Below, in pieces: positions 23,286-53,237 of a DNA stretch of 53,237 nt. A program made the position numbers and the translations under genes. The notes beneath the pieces are model-generated. The model had not been told where the DNA came from, did no database searches, and saw only the letters and a program-made list of their open reading frames with translations. Within the stretch, counting starts at the first letter, position 1, and each line of letters starts with the position of its first letter. Origin of the DNA: Candidatus Altimarinota bacterium (lineage in GTDB: Bacteria > Patescibacteriota > Gracilibacteria > BD1-5 > JAGOOR01); NCBI GenBank assembly GCA_023268615.1, contig JALQUC010000006.1, positions 1-53,237 of the forward strand, read 5' to 3'.

Positions 23286-24461
23286 TTAATTTTTCATTGC
23301 GAGAGTTGATTCTATAAATTCAAACATCTCTCGCTCGAATCTCTGTTCAGAAAAACTCGCTCCGTGCTCACGAATAAAATCATGATTCCACTCGATATCA
23401 TCCATTCTCTGGAGAGCAGTCGCGAGAGAAGCAGGAGCCTGCTCAGAGAAGAGAAGCCCTGTCTGCCCATGAATGACTGTCTCCGTCGCACCACCCTCAC
23501 CATACGCGATCACAGGAGCTCCGTGTACCATCGCCTCGAGTGCTACGATGCCGAAGTCTTCTTCCTGAGGCATGATAAACCCCTTCGCTCATTCGAGCGC
23601 ACGAGATACCTCAGCATCAGGAGCATCAAAAATCCACTCAATCGTCGGACCCGATATTTTCTGCAGTCTCTCGGATTCTGCATTTCTCGTATTAGTAAAT
23701 ATACGGAGTGGGTAACCGAGCTCATTGCACGCCTCGATAGCGAGATCGAATCGCTTATAAGGAACGATACGCCCGAGACAGACGAAGTAGTTCGTGTTTA
23801 ATTTGTTTGATTCGTTTTGTTCGTTTAATTCGTTAAAAATCCTTCATTTTTCATTGTTCATTATTCATTGTTCATTTGAATTATAGAAAGGATAAACAAC
23901 CACACTTTCTCGATTATAAAAATCTGCAATTCTGGCCTGTGTCGTGGCAGAATTGGCTATAAATATATCTGGTCTCTGAGCCGCTCTATAATCCCATTTT
24001 TTCATGACCTTGAAAGCTACAGGAATCACGAGCTTTGCGAGCCAATTGAGGGCTCAGAACTCGAGAAAGCTCCTATAGGCATCGCTATGGCTCCAGAGAT
24101 AGCGCGTCGGTGTGTGACAATAGCAGACATGCTTGGTTTTTCAATTTGTGTGAATACCCTTTGCTTCTGCAGAACTCGAGCTGATGACTATATCGTATTT
24201 TCGGAAATTGAAGCTCCAAAACGCGAGAGGGCGCAAGAGCATACAGAGCTTGTGACGGCGATTGAGAAATGGGAGATAATGAATAAAGCTCTTATGTATT
24301 TTTCTTCATTTGAAAAATTCTGGTCGAGTCGGGAAAAACACGCTCGTATAGATATCCGCCTCAGGGTACATCTTCATGAGCTTCACAAACACCCTCTCTG
24401 CCCCACCCCAGTGAGTGATCCAATCGGCGACGAGTGCTATTTTTTTCTGGTTTCCGTTCAT
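23286..24461 (-). CDS. Glycosyltransferase family 4
   Basis: KIALVADWITHWGGAERVF, YFVCLGRIVPYKRFDLAIEACNELG, GFIMPQEEDFGIVALEAMVHGAPVIAYGEGGATETV. Confidence 0.85.
23796..23877. repeat. Adjacent 9-bp and 7-bp repeat arrays inside a GT4 gene
   Basis: gtttaattt gtttgattc gttttgttc gtttaattc, then ttcattt ttcattg ttcatta ttcattg ttcattt. Confidence 0.9.
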
Positions 24462-24559: not shown

Positions 24560-26110
24560 ATGTCCAAAAAACTCATCACAACAGCCATTCCCTATATGAA
24601 TGGTGTACCACATATCGGTCATGCCCTCGAAGTCATCCTCACCGATGTCATCGCTCGTGGCTATCGTCTGCTAGGAGAGGAAGTGTTTTTCCTCACAGGT
24701 GCAGATGAACACGGGAGCAAGATACTCAAAACTGCAGAAACAGCTGGACGAGATGTCATGGATATGCTCGATGAAAATGTGCGTCATTTTCAGGATATGA
24801 ACACGGCTCTCTCTATCTCAAACGATGGCTATATCCGTACAACGGACAAAGAAAAGCACTGGCCAGTCGTCCAAGCGCTCTGGATGAGAATGTATAATAA
24901 TATAGATCCAGAAACATGAGAACGAGATATCTACAAAAAAACCTACGCTGGATATTACTGTGACCGTGAAGAGCGATTTGTGACGGAGGAAGAACTCGAT
25001 GAAAATAAATGTCTCAAGGAAGGTGGAGCTCCTACCCGTTGGACCGAAGATGAGAATTATTTCTTCCGACTCAGCAGATACAGCGACACCATCAAAGAAA
25101 AACTCATGAATGGTGAAGTCAAAATCACCCCAGAATTTAGACAAAATGAGATGATAGCGATGATCGGTGACGGCCTCGAAGATGTCAGCTTTTCTCGGAC
25201 AAAAAAACAGCTCACCTGGGGTATTCCTGTGCCAAATGATTCAGACCATGTGATGTATGTCTGGTGTGATGCACTCACGAACTACTTATCGTGAAGTCCT
25301 TTTTTTGAAGAGCAAAGAGCAAAGAGCAAAGAGCAAAATGAAGGAATCGAGAATTTGTTTAAAAACTGGAATTGTGAACTCCATGTCATCGGAAAGGATA
25401 TTGCACGATTTCACTGTCTGACCTGGATAGGCATGCTGTTATCTGGATGAATCAATCTACCAAAAAATATCCTCGTACATGGATTCGTGAATGATAAAGA
25501 TGGTGCAAAAATGAGTAAATCTGTCGGCAATGTCATCGATCCACACGCTATGATAGCAGAATATGGCTCAGATACTGTGCGTCTCTATATGACGAGTGAA
25601 GTGGGAGTCGGACAAGATCTCAACTTCAGCGATGAACGAATCAGATCAATACACAACGATGTCCTGGCAAATAACTACGGAAACCTCGTTAATCGGGTTA
25701 TTTCGTTGTGGATTGCACACAGAGATAAAGAACCTACACCTGCTTCATTAGAAAGAAAAGGCATAGGAGGCTTAAAAATATTTAGCACAAGGTATTTAGA
25801 TGCGCTAAAAACTAATAACACTCAGTGAATGTTTGCAGTCATCCAGGAACTTCTCAACGACGCAAATATTATGCTCAATACCACCGAACCATGGAAGAAG
25901 CAGGGTGAAGAGAAAAGCAACATCCTGATCGATTGAATCAGCTATGTCTACTACATCACACACATGCTCTCCCCTTTTATCCCCAAAGCCACGAGCAAAG
26001 TGATGAAGGCAATGGGAATAAAAGAAGGTACAACGCTCGATGATCCAATTTCAATAGACCTCAATACCATAACTAAACCAGAGATATTGTTTGAGAAGAA
26101 ATTCTCATAA
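24560..26110 (+). CDS. metG: Methionyl-tRNA synthetase
   Basis: TTAIPYMNGVPHIGHALEVILTDV, KMSKSVGNVIDP; UGA at GERDIYKKTYAGYYC. Confidence 0.95.
25308..25338. repeat. 7-bp-period GAGCAAA repeat inside metG
   Basis: gaagagcaaagagcaaagagcaaagagcaaaa, in frame as EEQRAKSKEQN. Confidence 0.9.
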
Positions 26111-28799: not shown

Positions 28800-28831
28800 T
28801 TTTATACTTTGTACTTTGTCTTTTGTATTTA
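28800..28831. repeat. 7-bp-period TTTGTAC-family repeat upstream of recG
   Basis: ttttatac tttgtac tttgtct tttgtat tt. Confidence 0.75.
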
Positions 28832-28841
28832 TAAATAGTAA

Positions 28842-30899
28842 ATGAAGCTCACAAAAACTCTCCTCAGAACGACCGACAGCTATATCCAGAGGCTGGCTCG
28901 AGGGGGTATAGAGACTGTGGAGGATTTGCTCCTCTTTTTCCCTCGTGATATCGAGAATACTGCTGATGTCCTCGACAGCTTTGCCTATGTGAATATCCGA
29001 GAAAAAAACACCATCAAGGTCACACTCATTAATGTCATTCAGGAGCGGACTCGATTTCAGAAAAATCTCACAAAATTTCTCATATCAGATAAGAATGGCA
29101 TGTCCTCGGAGTGTGTCTTTTTTCGGACTCCTTTTTTCAAACAACCAATCAAGCCAGGAGATACTATCATCGTCCATGGGAAGCCAAAATACGAATACGG
29201 AAAACTCTCATTCCCCCAGCCTGATATAGAGCTCTTTGACGAGAAGAGGCAGGCCTATCTCCCGATATATACAGAAATCCAGGGCATCAATACCAAGTGG
29301 TTCCGTGAGAAAATACCGCTCCTCTTTGAATACCTCAAATACATACCTGAGATACTGCCTGAGGAAATACAAGAAGTCCGCAAACATCGCCCTCGTACGA
29401 CCAATATCCGAGCACTTCATGCGCCAGAGACCCTCGAGACCTACGAGCTCGCAAAGCATGAACTAGCTTATGAAGAACTCTTTGAACTCCAATACAAGGC
29501 TCTGCAAAGGAAGAAAATCATCCAAGAAGCGAGTATAGGTCATGTGAAGTGAATACCGCTCGATGCTGATTTTGTCAGAGATGCTCTCGAGAAACTCCCT
29601 TTTCCCCTCACAAGCCACCAAAAAATCACCCTCTTTGAGATTCTCAAGGATATGGAAAAGGATATCTGTATGCAGAGACTTCTTCAGGGCGATGTCGGTA
29701 CAGGGAAAACTATTGTCGCATTTCTCTCGCTCATTCACTGGATACAGGGAACTGGCTGACAGGTCGCCTATATGGCACCGACGACTATCCTCGCGACACA
29801 AGTGGCAAAAAAACTCGCCCAATTTCTCGAACCATACGGCATCAGCTCAGCACTCCTGTTCTGAAGCCTCAAGGCAAAAGAAAAAAAGGAAATCAAATCA
29901 GCACTTCAGTCAGGAGAGCTCTCTGTCGTCGTAGGAACGCATGCACTCATATCGGAGGATACGCATTTCCGTCATCTCTCGTATGTCATCATCGATGAAC
30001 AGCACCGATTTGGCGTCGAACAACGAGAAAAGCTCACGGAGTATGTTTCTCGAGTTTCCAGTTCAGAGTTTCAAGTTTTAAGCCTTGCTAACAACGGAGA
30101 AGACATCGCCGGTACTGAAAACTCAAAACTCAAAACTCAAAACTATTCCCACAGAATCGTCCCCCATGTCCTCATGATGACGGCGACACCAATCCCGCGG
30201 ACACTCTCTATGGCGCTGTACGGTAATCAGGATATCTCTATCATCCGTGAATACCCAGCGAACAGGAAACCAATTACGACGAAAATCGTCACTCCAAATC
30301 ATGCTCATGAGGCCTATGCATGGATCGAATCACAGATTCAGCTCTGACATCAGGTCTACTGGATATCTCCTCTCGTGGAAGGAAGTGAAAAAATCGATGC
30401 GGTCTCCGTCCATGAAACAGCAGAAAAACTCGGTATGCTCTTTCCCGAGAGAACCATAGGAATACTGCACTGACGCATGTCAGCAGATGAAAAGGATACC
30501 ATAATGAAAGACTTCATCGCTGGTCACTACGATATCCTGTCCTCGACTTCGGTCGTAGAGGTAGGTGTCGACAATCCCAATGCAACGGTTGTATGCATAG
30601 AAAATGCAGAACGATTCGGACTCTCACAGCTCCATCAATTCCGAGGTCGTGTGGGTCGTGGAGAAGCTCAGTCATACTGCTATCTCCTCTCGGACAATGC
30701 CAATGCCGATCGACTGAGAGCGCTCGAGAAGACCAATGATGGATTTGAGATATCAGAGATAGATATGCAGCTCAGAGGGCCAGGAGAAGTCTACGGAGTG
30801 CGTCAATCAGGCGTTCCAGACCTGAAACTCGCCTCTATCATGGATCTCGAGAAAATCTATGAAATACGCAAGGATATAGAGCAATATCTCGGAAAATAG
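28842..30899 (+). CDS. recG: ATP-dependent DNA helicase RecG
   Basis: [54 protein letters not shown] (G=UGA), QFRGRVGRG. Confidence 0.95.
30052..30144. repeat. Inverted 7-bp-type repeat element inside recG
   Basis: Left gagtttccagttcagagtttcaagttttaag, right gaaaactcaaaactcaaaactcaaaact; imperfect inverted arms. Confidence 0.85.
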
Positions 30900-31390: not shown

Positions 31391-31494
31391 TTATGCATAT
31401 TCTAGAAGTGAAAGTTGCATCTACCCGGAACAATGGTCTTAATACCTAATACCTACTACTTAATACTGAATTCTATTCAATAACTCCACTCTCT

Positions 31495-32862
31495 ATGACT
31501 CATCTCTGACTCATCGGTCTCGGCACTATGGGCGAAAATCTCGTCCGAAACATCATCTCTCATGATGAATCCATCGTCGTCTGGAACAGATCGCTGGATA
31601 AAGTCGATGCGCTCGTCGCAGAAACAGGTAATACTGTCATAAAAGCAGACACTATCGCTGATCTCGTCCAAAAAACTGAATCTCCACGCAATATCATCCT
31701 CCTCGTCCCTGCTGGAAAGGTAACGACAGAGGTCGCGCAAGAACTCTTCGGAATACTCAGCCCCGGTGATGCCATCTGGGATCTCGGCAATGCTCACTGG
31801 GATGTGACACTTGCGAATCAAGCAGAAGCACTCAAACACGGTATTCACTGGGTAGGGTGTGGGATATCTGGTGGCTCTGAGTGAGCTCGACTCTGACCCG
31901 CTCTCATGCCAGGCGGTGAAGAGGAAACTGTCAAGAGAATGCTCCCTCTCCTCGAGAAAATCGCCGCAAAAGACTTCGCGGGAAAGCCATGTGTCACCTA
32001 TGTGGGTCGAGCTGCTGCAGGAAATTTCGTCAAAATGGTTCACAATGGTATCGAATACGCCATCATGCAGTGAATCGCTGAAATCTACGATATTCTCCGT
32101 TCTACGAACACATCTCAAGCAGAAATGAAGACCATATTTGAAGAGCTGAATACCGGACTCCTGAAGAGTTTTCTCCTCGATATCACCGTGGATATCCTCG
32201 GTACGAAGGACTCTGACGGTACAGATTTACTCGAGAAAATCAGCGATATAGCGGGCAGTAAAGGAACAGGTGGATGGACTGTCGAAGCAGCACTCAAGCT
32301 CGGTGTCCCTGTACCGACTATTGCTGAGTCACTGTTTGCGCGGTGGATGTCGGGGAGAAATCATCAAAACTCACTCTGAAAAATGAATAATGAAAAATGA
32401 ATAATGAATAATGGAGGAATATCAAAAATTGAAACAAATCTCCTCAAGCAAGCACTCAAAACCGCCTATCTTGCTTCATATTTTCAAGGAATCGAACTCA
32501 TTCTCGTAGCGGAAAAAGAGTGGAATTGGTGAATCGATATCCAGGAAGTATTGAGAATCTGGCAAGGAGGATGCATCATCCGCAGTGAGATGCTCAGGGT
32601 TCTGCCAGATTTTTACAGAGAATGATCCGCTCCAGATGCAGAGTCTAAGGATATTGAAACATTGCTACAAGAAGCGAGAGAGATAATCAATAGTTCAATG
32701 GTTCCAACACCTGTTCTCTCAAGCAGCTATAGCTATATGCTGACACGGACTAGTGAGAAGCTCCCTACCAATCTCATCCAGGCTATGCGTGATAGCTTCG
32801 GTGCTCATGGAGTGAAGAGGATATGAAGTGATGTGAGCGAGAGTTTTCAGTGGAATTCGTAA
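31495..32862 (+). CDS. gnd: 6-phosphogluconate dehydrogenase (decarboxylating)
   Basis: LIGLGTMGENLVRNI, GISGGSEGARLGPALMPGG (two G=UGA), GRAAAGNFVKMVHNGIEYA. Confidence 0.92.
32379..32414. repeat. 7-bp-period ATTATTC-family repeat inside gnd
   Basis: aaaaatgaataatgaaaaatgaataatgaataatgg, in frame as KMNNEKGIMNNG. Confidence 0.9.
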
Positions 32863-34934: not shown

Positions 34935-35840
34935 TTATTCATTATTCATTTCAGTATACCGTCTGAACCATGTAAGCTGACGCTTCGCATAATTGCGACT
35001 ATTTTGTTGGACGAGTTCTAGTGCTTGTTCGAGTGATATCCTATCTGCGAGGAAATCTATCACTTCTCTGTAGCCTATAGCATTGAGTCACGGTAATTCT
35101 TTTAATATTCCATCATTCTTCATTATTCATTCTTCATTATTCATTAGTCGTTGGACTTCTTCAATAAGTCCTGACTGAAACATCTCCCCGACCCGCTGAT
35201 TAATTGTCTCATAGAGCTTGTCACGGTCTCCATCGTAGGGCGTGATGCGGAGAAAATCATATGGGCTCTCAGTTTTTTGTCAGAGGACTTTCTTTGACTT
35301 CCCAGTTTCCTTCCATATCTCGAGCCCTCGAATCACATAGCGGTAATTTCTCGGATCGAGGTCTGCGGCATAGTCTGGATCGACGGCATTGAGTTTTTCC
35401 CAGAGAGCCTCATTGCCGTGCTCGAGGCGAAATCTCTCCATCTCATCGCGGTATTCCCAGTCTGCGACGACTTCTGGAATAGTAAAATTACCAACCACTG
35501 AATCAATAAAGAGTCCCGTCCCTCCGGAGAGAATTGGGAGCTTCCCGCGAGCATGAATGTCCTCTATAATCCGTCTCGCCTCTGGAGCATACTCCCCTAC
35601 CCCATACATCTCACTGATATCTCGGATATCCAGCATATGGTGGACGACTCACTTCATCTCCTCCTGTGTCACTTTCCCTGTCCCGATATTCATCCCTCGA
35701 TAAATCTGCCGAGAGTCAGCATTGATAACCTCGCCATTATATTTCTGTGCGAGCTCTATCGTGAGGGCAGTCTTGCCACACGCCGTCGGTCAATAAATCA
35801 CGAGGAGTCTGGGTTTACTTGCCTTTGCGTAGTCCGCCAT
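34935..35840 (-). CDS. miaA: tRNA dimethylallyltransferase
   Basis: [20 protein letters not shown] (G=UGA in Walker A), [45 protein letters not shown]. Confidence 0.92.
35114..35146. repeat. ATTATTC-family repeat inside miaA
   Basis: cattcttcattattcattcttcattattcatt, identical over 32 bp to 41391-41422. Confidence 0.9.
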
Positions 35841-40917: not shown

Positions 40918-42678
40918 CTAAGATCAAAAAGTAAAGGCGTGAAGACGGAGTCACGGTGTCACAGAAATACGAATCATGGCTTCATCTTGAAATTTCTCTG
41001 ACCCAAAGACCTGATAAATAGTGTCCTCTATGACTCTTACAGGATTTTCCGAAATAATATTTCCATCCTTGTCTAACTCTTGAACAAATATCATTCCCCC
41101 CTTTCTCTCCGAATTTGAAGAAACTACGAGAAATACATTTTTTGCAGAAAATTTCAATGTCAGAATTGATGGCTCCGATGCCTGTAGAAATTCTTCCTGG
41201 ACATCCCATTCTCACTCCAGAGTCCATTGATGAGTACTAAGCAGTGGGTAAGGTGTGAATTTCTGGACTCCTTTTATCAGTTTTCCAGAAGAAAAAATCA
41301 TATTCTCTGCTCTCGCCGTACCCAGATATGTCTCTGGAGTCTTCTTTTTCCCCTGACTCAGAGAGCTATTTTCTCAATTAAATAATCCACCATTCTTCAT
41401 TATTCATTCTTCATTATTCATTCCAAGCAATGATTGAATCTTTTGTTCCGTCTCGGCGTATTCTCCTTCTCAGAAATGCTTATAGACAATATTACCATTT
41501 TGGTCTATCAGGTACTTCGCTGGCCAATAACGATTCGCATAGGCATTCCAGGTCGCAAAATCATTATCGAGCGCTATAGGGTATTTTATTCCGGCTTTTT
41601 GTGATGCTTCTCGGACATTATTTTCTACTTTTTCAAAGGCAAACTCTGGAGCATGAACACCTATGATGACGAGTCCATCATCCGCATATTTCTCGTGCCA
41701 TGCATTGAGGTATGGCTGAGTACGGATACAGTTGATACAGGAATATGTCCAGAAATCTATGAGAACAACCTTTCATCGAAGTCACTCAAGTGTGAGTGGT
41801 TTAGAACCCGCCTGTCCGGCAGGCAGGTTGATCCAAGCGGCTATACCCGTGAGCTCAGGAGCGCGTGCGACATCCATCATGAGATTACCCTCTCGGCCTT
41901 CATCACATTTCCCATTAGCACACATATTATTCACGGTATTGTGGTTCCGGAGAATGATTTCATTGAGGGTATTATCTATGGCAAAAGTATTTACAAATAT
42001 ATTTCTCTCGATGATAAATGTTTCAATTTTCTTGATATAGCCTGTGACAATGAGCAGTCCGACAATGAGTATTATGATACCCAGCAAGCGACGAAAGATG
42101 CCGTGAGGATTGCTAAAAAATCTGAATCGACCGATAATACTCCGCCCAAAATGAACAATCAAGAGGAGGATGATTCCAAGGCCAATAAAATAAGCGAGGA
42201 GTCCAATCATTCCCATGGTGAAGCTCGCTGGGAGAATAGTCGCGAGGAGAATTGTATAGGTAGGATTACAGCTCGAAAAAACTGGACCAAGTGCAGCTCC
42301 GAGAGCAATAGGTCACCAGATTCATTCACGATGACTCGCTGATTCGAGAGAATTTTGAGAGAGTTTTTCTATGCCAGTAATGTCCATGAGCCAGACCCAG
42401 ACATGAGGAAATATGAGCGTGATAGAAAAGAGTACGAGGAGTCCGCCTGCCACATATTCCCAAAATGATGGATCCACACCGATGAGTACCGTCGAAGCCT
42501 TGAGAAGTATGGTGAAGACGAGGAGCGAGAGGATGAGTGAAGCGATGATGATATAGGGTCGTTTCCTGTCAGTTCCAGCGAGTCATCCTCCGAGAATAAC
42601 AGGGAGAAGTGGGAGTACACATGGTGCGAGGACTGTGAGAATACCAGAGAAAAATGATATGAGAATAATGGTGACCAT
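40918..42678 (-). CDS. CcdA/DsbD-type membrane domain fused to TlpA-like redoxin and C-terminal domain (DipZ-like)
   Basis: Multi-TM N-terminus, AAWINLPAGQAGSKPLTLE redoxin entry, C-terminal beta domain TLKFSAKNVFLVVSS; frame continuous through UGA. Confidence 0.75.
41391..41423. repeat. ATTATTC-family repeat inside dipZ-like gene
   Basis: cattcttcattattcattcttcattattcattc; in frame as MNNEEGIMKNGG. Confidence 0.9.
41807..41830. repeat. CCTGCCGGCAGG-type palindrome inside dipZ-like gene
   Basis: cccgcctgtccggcaggcaggttg; in frame as NLPAGQAGS. Confidence 0.8.
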
Positions 42679-43120: not shown

Positions 43121-43816
43121 TTATTTCTTCTTTCGACAAAAAAATGACACTATTTTACTCCCCTCTCGTCGCCCCATTATCTCAAATTCTGTCGCCGTTT
43201 CTGGAGAGAGTTTTTTATCTGGTTCTTCATTATCATTTTTCTCGTAGGTGAAATACGGACACCGAGCGAGATGCTCCTCTATCCATAGGGCATACGAAGC
43301 CTCATCAGTTTTGATGAGGAAGATTCCACCAGGAGCCAGGACAGAAGCAGCATCACGGAGAAAATCATCCTGAATCACTCGATTCTTATGATGTCATTTT
43401 TTTGGCCAAGGATCTGAGAAGAGCAGGTAGAGCTCGTCGATTTCTCCGGGAGCGAATATTTCTGGTATCTTTTGTCCAAATACTTTGAGGAGAATGACAT
43501 CTTCCCTGCCCTTTCTCGCACATTTTTCATAGGTACGAATGAGTCGTTTGTATTTGAGTTCTATTCCCACACATGCTGTATCTGGATGATTTTCGACATA
43601 ATTACTCAAGAAGTTTCCCATACCAGTACCTATCTCGAGCATGAGTTTAGGGTAAATAAATGAAGCTTCCTTCTCATTTTTCATTATTCATTTTTCATTA
43701 TTCATTCACGAACACAGTTCGCGCCACTTCCCTTTTTGAGCAAACATCTTTGCCTCATCGCTCCAAATACTTGGATGTTCGGCAACTTTCTGGATATAGA
43801 TATTCTCGTAGGGCAT
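43121..43816 (-). CDS. trmB: tRNA (guanine-N7-)-methyltransferase
   Basis: KLMLEIGTGMGNFLSNYV, GIELKYKRLIRTYEK, ELYLLFSDPWPKKGHHKNR. Confidence 0.92.
43673..43708. repeat. ATTATTC-family repeat inside trmB
   Basis: ctcatttttcattattcatttttcattattcattcac; in frame as MNNEKGIMKNEKE. Confidence 0.9.
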
Positions 43817-52454: not shown

Positions 52455-52482
52455 GAACGAATTAAACGCATTAAACCTATAA
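52455..52482. repeat. 9-bp-period repeat, right flank of S23 gene, inverted relative to left
   Basis: gaacgaattaaacgcattaaacctata; reverse complement tataggtttaatgcgtttaattcgttc. Confidence 0.9.
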
Positions 52483-52488
52483 AAACAT

Positions 52489-53237
52489 ATGAAACCCTGT
52501 CTCCTCATAATGGCTGCTGGACTCTGAAGTAGATACGGTGGTCTCAAACAAATCGATCCTGTCGGACCACATGGTGAGATACTCCTCGAATTCGCACTCC
52601 GTGACGCTCTCAGTTTTGGTGTAGAGGAGGTCGTCGTCATCGTGAGTGAGGCTATTCGTGCTGATTTTGAATCCATGATAGTACCAAAATATCCTGAACT
52701 GAAGATAACTCTTGTCACACAGACGCTCACTTCCCTACCAGAAGGGATCTCACAGAATCCACAGCGAAATAAACCGTGGTGAACAGCTCATGCAGTCTGG
52801 TGCGCACGCGATGTTATCCGAGGACCATTTATCGTCATGAATGCCGACGACTTCTACGGTCGAGATGCACTCAAACAGGCATTTGATTTCCTTACGAGCG
52901 AAGTTGATAGTTTAAAGTTTAAAGTTTTAAGCGATGAATCAAATACCCCTGAACTCAAAACTCAAAACTTAAAACTTAAAACTTTGAGCCACTGTATAAT
53001 CACCTATCCTATTACGAGTACTCTCTCAGAATACGGAACGGTCTCTCGCGGAATCTGTGAAGTACAGGACGGTAAACTCATAAAAATAGTAGAACACACA
53101 AAAGTGGAGTGGAAAAATAACGAATTAAACTGATTAAACGAATGAAACAAATTAAACCCAAGCCGTAGGCTTGTGCATACAGCTGAAGATGGTCACGAAG
53201 TACTCATTCCTGAAGATGCTCCTGCAAATATGAATCT
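52489..53237 (+). CDS. Nucleotidyltransferase (sugar-1-phosphate type), 3'-truncated by window
   Basis: MKPCLLIMAAGLGSRYGGLKQIDPVGPHGEILLEF (G=UGA), FIVMNADDFYGRDALKQAF. Confidence 0.85.
52908..52988. repeat. Inverted 7-bp-type repeat inside nucleotidyltransferase gene
   Basis: agtttaaagtttaaagttttaagc / gaactcaaaactcaaaacttaaaacttaaaactttgag. Confidence 0.85.
53118..53158. repeat. 9-bp-period repeat inside nucleotidyltransferase gene
   Basis: ataacgaattaaactgattaaacgaatgaaacaaattaaacc, in frame as NNELNGLNEGNKLN. Confidence 0.85.

Follow-up and report, generated by a model that had tools for sequence, protein, structure and literature searches.

The recG gene and its insert

The window analyzed here, 53,237 nucleotides long, is the whole of contig C36 of the 966-kb draft genome G000. 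It carries a recG gene whose frame runs from 28842 to 30896, with a stop ending at 30899, and contains five in-frame TGA codons under code-25 translation. The Pfam domains RecG_wedge, DEAD, Helicase_C, and RecG_dom3_C all score above cut-off, and the protein has the make-up of RecG, with the wedge domain, helicase motifs I, II, III, and VI, and the C-terminal RecG domain. The features of this region, with motifs placed by translation and by alignment to the solved Thermotoga RecG (1GM5), are as follows.

28842..30899, forward strand: recG gene, 685 amino acids (code-25 translation), open only with TGA read as glycine
29994..30035, forward strand: RecG motif II region
30052..30144, forward strand: RecG insert of 31 codons, in frame, absent from the RecG of most relatives (RecG alignments)
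30052..30082, forward strand: left arm of the insert, degenerate AGTTT-type heptamers GTTTCCA GTTCAGA GTTTCAA GTTTTAA
30083..30117, forward strand: spacer of the insert, 35 nucleotides, unrelated to the spacer of the nucleotidyltransferase element described below (shuffle test)
30118..30144, forward strand: right arm of the insert, AAAACTC AAAACTC AAAACTC AAAACT
30174..30206, forward strand: RecG motif III

Translation and the 1GM5 alignment indicate that the RecG motifs are intact despite the insert. The insert is 93 nucleotides long, giving 31 extra residues compared with a relative that lacks it, and the stretch from DEQH to TATP counts 62 residues, against about 31 in most relatives. Its left arm reads GAGTTTCCAGTTCAGAGTTTCAAGTTTTAAG and its right arm (AAAACTC)3AAAACT. 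In the 1GM5 alignment, the gap lies between RecG residues 399 and 443, corresponding to 1GM5 residues 511 to 519, and only seven 1GM5 residues span the gap that the insert fills. A sequence-only reading of this DNA had proposed a hairpin-forming insertion between motifs II and III, coded by inverted AAAACTC-type arms. Its position at 30052–30144 holds to the base, as 31 residues in frame; the inverted arms are confirmed, and as DNA the insert folds better than 199 of 200 dinucleotide shuffles (z = −3.45).

The congeneric genome G001 encodes a RecG that is 87% identical to that of G000 and lacks the 31 residues. In keeping with the earlier expectation that distant RecG proteins would not share it, the alignment shows the insert missing from G001 and most relatives, and the idea that it is a conserved RecG feature is rejected. 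The one structural alignment, to 1GM5, and the inserts found in relatives suggest placement in a surface loop. The insert is probably a tolerated, disordered loop without a specific role, and on balance it appears to belong to a class of period-7 tandem arrays spread across the genome.

A second inverted element in a nucleotidyltransferase gene

Near the end of the window, a nucleotidyltransferase gene carries a comparable element.

52483..53235, forward strand: nucleotidyltransferase gene, truncated by the contig end, open with TGA read as glycine
52904..52989, forward strand: second inverted heptamer element, inside the nucleotidyltransferase gene, with an AGTTTAA-type arm, a spacer, and an AAAACTC/AAAACTT arm
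53118..53157, forward strand: separate period-9 array of AACGAATTA type in the same gene, where G001 is 45 nucleotides shorter

The G001 orthologue is 83% identical, and relative to it the inverted element amounts to a net gain of 42 nucleotides; as DNA, the element folds with z = −2.92 against dinucleotide shuffles. Arrays of the period-9 family occur in the nucleotidyltransferase, a glycosyltransferase, and PepD (in the window at 53118–53157, 23796–23835, and 52456–52484, with PepD in L001).

The sequence-only reading had taken the RecG and nucleotidyltransferase inserts to be homologous. The repeat arms and their inverted order are indeed alike, but the spacers are not: 300 of 300 shuffles score as high as the real RecG–nucleotidyltransferase comparison. 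The shared phase of the encoded peptides, also offered as evidence, carries no weight. Because seven and three are coprime, a heptamer run gives one cyclic heptapeptide in all three frames, so (AAAACTC)n yields KTQNSKL in every frame and (GAGTTTT)n yields EFGVLSF in every frame under TGA as glycine.

Nor do the two genes form a special pair. The 625 kb of G000 surveyed contain about 20 AAACT/AGTTT arrays and six inverted AGTTT...AAACT pairs, four of them in addition to these two; the RecG pair, in which one left-arm unit is AGTTC, was identified by eye. All six pairs have the identical order, with arms 25–37 nucleotides apart, and among the 15 pairwise spacer comparisons only RnpA–XerC beats all 300 shuffles. 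A six-frame search for FxVLS-x(3-20)-LKTQN over about 840 kb (G000 plus G001) did find the peptide pair in RecG and the nucleotidyltransferase only, but as an element it has plenty of company, because seven-base arrays of this and other families lie in many other genes. What the two inserts have in common is the heptamer family and its arrangement.

Period-7 arrays across the genome

The array survey covered 625 kb of the 966 kb of G000 and 214 kb of G001. In G000 it identified 76 lag-7 arrays, or about 12 per 100 kb, and none in a shuffled copy, so the seven-base tandem unit exceeds chance as in heptanucleotide SSRs; other lags in the same 625 kb gave 55 (lag 14), 14 (lag 9), and 13 arrays (lag 6). 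G001 has 18 lag-7 arrays in its 214 kb. The G000 heptamer families are AATGAAN, AAAACTC, AAAAAGA, ACAAAGT, TAATACY, and a few others. The notion that each heptamer has five fixed bases and two variable ones next to each other is unsupported in G000, with 5 of 15 adjacent, equal to expectation. The further arrays in the window are listed below.

23839..23878, reverse strand: AATGAAN array in a glycosyltransferase gene, with a period-9 array after it
25304..25343, forward strand: GAGCAAA array in metG (methionyl-tRNA synthetase), missing in G001 (+36 nucleotides)
28801..28830, no strand assigned: ACAAAGT/TTTGTAC array directly upstream of recG, with the tail CAGAGGATTAG after the array on the A-rich strand
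31438..31471, no strand assigned: TAATACC heptamer array, intergenic
32376..32418, forward strand: AATGAAN array in a 6-phosphogluconate dehydrogenase-like gene, common to G001
35109..35154, reverse strand: AATGAAN array in miaA, near-identical in G001
41388..41425, reverse strand: AATGAAN array in a thioredoxin-like/DsbD-type gene, missing in G001 (+33 nucleotides)
43670..43708, reverse strand: AATGAAN array in trmB (tRNA methyltransferase), missing in G001 (+54 nucleotides)

Exact search of G000 for AAAACTYAAAACTYAAAACT returned eight sites, one between rpmJ-like and rpsM-like genes and seven in genes for conserved proteins: PepD, an RlmI-type methyltransferase, RnpA, YbeY, an XerC-type recombinase, RecG, and the nucleotidyltransferase (names assigned by sequence, those of RnpA and YbeY backed by Pfam). 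Arrays are also hosted by FolD, MutY, PrmC, an RsmF-type methyltransferase, a PorA-type protein (2-oxoacid oxidoreductase alpha subunit), Zwf, MiaB, transketolase, a glycosyltransferase, MetG, 6-phosphogluconate dehydrogenase (Gnd), MiaA, a thioredoxin-like (TlpA-like) protein, and TrmB. Pfam hits and alignments together give at least 21 conserved genes interrupted by in-frame heptamer arrays.

Length differences between G000 and G001 are all multiples of three in the 17 genes aligned. The first set of alignments gave 48, 42, 45, 57, 21, 69, 21, −24, and 18 nucleotides, and the second 0, 66, 21, 39, −42, 84, 60, 48, 36, 0, 0, 33, and 54; in YbeY and PepD the difference is exactly 21 nucleotides, or three heptamers. 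By hand count, the purine-rich, hydrophilic strand is the one read in 26 of 27 internal arrays, five upstream inverted arms being excluded from the count. Each of the 13 verified AATGAAN arrays within genes contains one or two in-frame TGA codons and would therefore end the protein under the usual code.

Arrays of (TTCTTTT)n type, with the opposite, hydrophobic reading, code an N-terminal signal-peptide-like stretch in four secreted-looking proteins, for example MKKTFLFSSFFFLLSSFGIAHG (L243 3164–3206; L249 7324–7365, 14897–14940, and 15736–15768). Elsewhere, two heptamer arrays stand tail to tail around a GGATTTTT...AAAATCC-like center (L249 12565–12650; in G001, L219 9792–9884 and L223 5237–5336), forming palindromes larger than that of RecG.

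Turnover, shared tail, and distribution

The arrays are patchy between species. At three orthologous sites, G000 and G001 carry different heptamers: a 108-nucleotide stretch of prmC carries AATGACG units in one genome but ACAAAAG units in the other, at equal length; ybeY has AAAAAGA units in G000 where G001 has AATGAAN, its first array being equal in length; and mutY has AAAAAGA versus ACAAAAT, with the length changed. Some arrays predate the species split, because the miaA array is near-identical in both genomes.

A GGNGGATT-like tail lies 3′ of 16 of 31 AATGAAN arrays and 11 of 19 AAAAAGA arrays, read on the A-rich strand, compared with none on the 5′ side and a background of 1.7%. It follows AATGAAN, AAAAAGA, and ACAAAGT arrays alike.

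Among 59 genomes, AATGAAN arrays are found in G000, G001, G003, G014, G033, G037, and G051. Long AAAACTY arrays were found neither in G001 nor in the other relatives searched, except 2 of 98; the reversed AAAACTY pattern is unusable as a control here, as it matches the same repeat in another phase. Further afield, the AAAACTC repeat is widespread in unrelated phyla: a pattern scan for (AAAACTC)n returned, among the matches listed, cyanobacteria, Bacteroidales, Chloroflexi, Levybacteria, and others. The AAAACTC loci among these listed matches hold 310 lag-7 arrays versus no more than 20 at any other lag tested. Although a single heptamer was the basis for choosing these loci, 144 of the 310 consist of other heptamers.

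RecG insertion sites in relatives

RecG alignments show that the loop between motifs II and III takes inserts repeatedly across relatives and is an insertion hotspot. G003 has a heptamer array there, encoding KIQNSKFKIQN, G055 a palindrome-coded peptide, and G001, G034, and G040 other peptides. Domains also occupy the loop in frame: a DUF559 nuclease domain of 184 residues with palindromic flanks in G015 (L340), and an acetyltransferase-like domain of 161 residues, named from sequence, in G039 (L345).

A second RecG insertion site lies about 85 residues before motif II (reference residue 314), where 13 of 20 RecGs contain a DUF559-like endonuclease domain; four of these domains were located by Pfam search and the rest by sequence. 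The domain is in frame and flanked by palindromic-repeat peptides (e.g., PHPNPLPEGEG ... PLSSGRGVGGEG). Its carriers are G016, G021, G035, G022, G041, G051, G053, G058, G059, G062, G072, G055, and G054 (loci L341, L342, L343, L344, L348–L355, and L357), and G014 has repeat-type residues alone at this site.

DUF559 domains also appear in other proteins. The MiaB of G000 (L243 16946–19018, contig C11) contains a whole DUF559 domain, residues 342–448, inside its radical SAM part, and the RsmF-type protein of G024 (L258) carries a DUF559-like domain in the loop that a heptamer array occupies in the G000 RsmF. Searching the literature for DUF559 insertions returned nothing pertinent.

Origin of the arrays

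With moderate confidence, we propose that the heptamer arrays arise by slippage or template switching and are tolerated in surface loops after filtering for frame, stop avoidance, and hydrophilicity. Short seven-base seeds would be duplicated by replication slippage or template switching, and strand switching near an array could then produce an inverted second arm and with it a hairpin. Most products inside genes would not last, since a single unit moves the reading frame by one base. The survivors would be those with a net length divisible by three, no in-frame TAA or TAG, a hydrophilic reading, and a position in a surface loop such as that between motifs II and III of RecG, where the insert would be neutral. 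Reassignment of TGA to glycine may have widened the survivable set, because AATGAAN arrays are read through TGA.

The slippage or template-switching account, which we hold to be somewhat probable, is favored over a mobile palindrome resembling Rickettsia palindromic elements (RPEs) or MITEs, which we consider unlikely. Such an element would be a discrete hairpin moved by a transposase in trans and open in frame by chance. The inverted arms with their fixed order and spacing, the in-frame insertion into many unrelated genes as for RPEs (PMC10969869), and the 3′ tail common to several heptamer families would all suit it, and G000 has one Y1 transposase gene (PF01797). That transposase was not found in G001 (85% complete), however, though G001 has arrays. 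Single-arm arrays are common (PepD, YbeY, FolD, MiaA), insert size varies from copy to copy, and the RecG and nucleotidyltransferase spacers are unrelated; target-site duplications are not apparent on viewing the G000–G001 alignments. Descent of the two inserts from one ancestral element is less credible again, at the foot of what we would call very unlikely. It would account for the likeness in arms, order, and peptide pair, and for the restriction of that pair to RecG and the nucleotidyltransferase in the sequence searched, but the heptamer by itself dictates frame and peptide, the spacers are unrelated, and four further inverted pairs carry the same arms elsewhere.

It is also very unlikely that the hairpin or its peptide was selected for a function in RecG or the mRNA, for instance by pausing translation or by providing a binding module between motifs II and III. 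The fold is stable, the insert sits between two helicase motifs, and some arrays are conserved in both species (MiaA, Gnd), yet the congeneric RecG and most relatives do without the insert, wholly different inserts occupy the loop in other relatives, and the peptide recurs in unrelated enzymes. To assembly artefact or chance we give almost no credence: low-complexity repeats can mislead metagenome assembly, but for the array class this explanation is refuted by the absence of arrays from shuffled sequence, the miaA array of one sequence in two independent genomes, and the frame of the conserved gene that resumes after every array.

Simple slippage does not explain everything. The GGNGGATT-like 3′ tail common to different heptamer families, the change of heptamer at constant array length in PrmC and YbeY, and the uniform order and 25–37-nucleotide spacing of all six AGTTT...AAACT pairs count against it. 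A bolder reading, possible but doubtful, is that an undescribed process in these and other bacteria lays down and exchanges seven-base arrays, using the GGNGGATT-like tail as an anchor and swapping the heptamer at a fixed site and length. TGA read as glycine might then have let this process invade housekeeping genes, turning seven-base repeats into a general supply of novel loops and signal peptides for proteins.

Comparison with known repeat systems

Repeat units that are not divisible by three are expected to stay out of genes. According to Mrazek et al. (2007), as relayed in PMC4679880, heptanucleotide units are the commonest among the longer repeats of many bacteria, and units divisible by three are noted as likeliest in coding regions. 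Published heptamers, such as TAACTGA of Beggiatoaceae (PMC4679880) and the G-rich heptamers of Xanthomonas and Nostoc (PMC4692102), are reported to be mainly intergenic or under-represented in coding sequence. The G000 arrays resemble heptanucleotide SSRs in their seven-base unit, several copies, dispersal, and patchiness between species. Unlike the published cases, about half of them lie inside conserved genes, at least 21 of which are affected, several families coexist, and they show inverted pairs, a common 3′ tail, and a TGA-to-glycine code that keeps one major family open. We read the mainly intergenic rule as a description of earlier heptamer cases and not as a definition; as the G000 case departs from the divisible-by-three rule, it is therefore classed as a variant of the known heptamer repeats.

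In the REP/RAYT system, palindromes tagged with GTAG or CGTC are served by a dedicated Y1 transposase. In G000, no GTAG or CGTC tag was noticed on viewing the listed array flanks, and Y1_Tnp occurs once, with none found in G001. RPEs are hairpin-forming repeats of about 150 bp that belong to defined sequence families and lie in frame in unrelated housekeeping genes (PMC10969869). The G000 repeats likewise form hairpins and are inserted in frame in conserved ORFs, but their arms are heptamer arrays, their sizes vary, and often only one arm is present; RPEs are alike over the whole palindrome, whereas the spacers here are unrelated apart from the RnpA–XerC pair. Borg proteins contain in-ORF tandem repeats whose unit lengths are all divisible by three (PMC9879509). 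Both sets are tandem repeats that evolve quickly and give rise to new protein segments, probably disordered ones, and the unit of seven in G000 sets its arrays apart. The PTD tripeptide repeat of a gracilibacterium, a nine-base unit in one surface-protein gene (PMC6851277), is similarly a coding repeat in a lineage that reads TGA as glycine, whereas the G000 arrays are inserts in housekeeping enzymes.

The presence of these arrays in at least 21 conserved genes, including those for RnpA, MetG, MiaA, and YbeY, makes the origin of the long-known, unexplained bacterial heptamer arrays testable, along with whether a stop-codon reassignment opened coding space to them and which core-enzyme loops can accept an insertion. 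It also carries a warning that KTQNSKL or MNNEEGIMKN peptides in metagenomic proteins are marks of a repeat and not of homology. Set against the systems above, heptamer repeats as such are already known, and their use inside genes on the scale found in G000 looks new.
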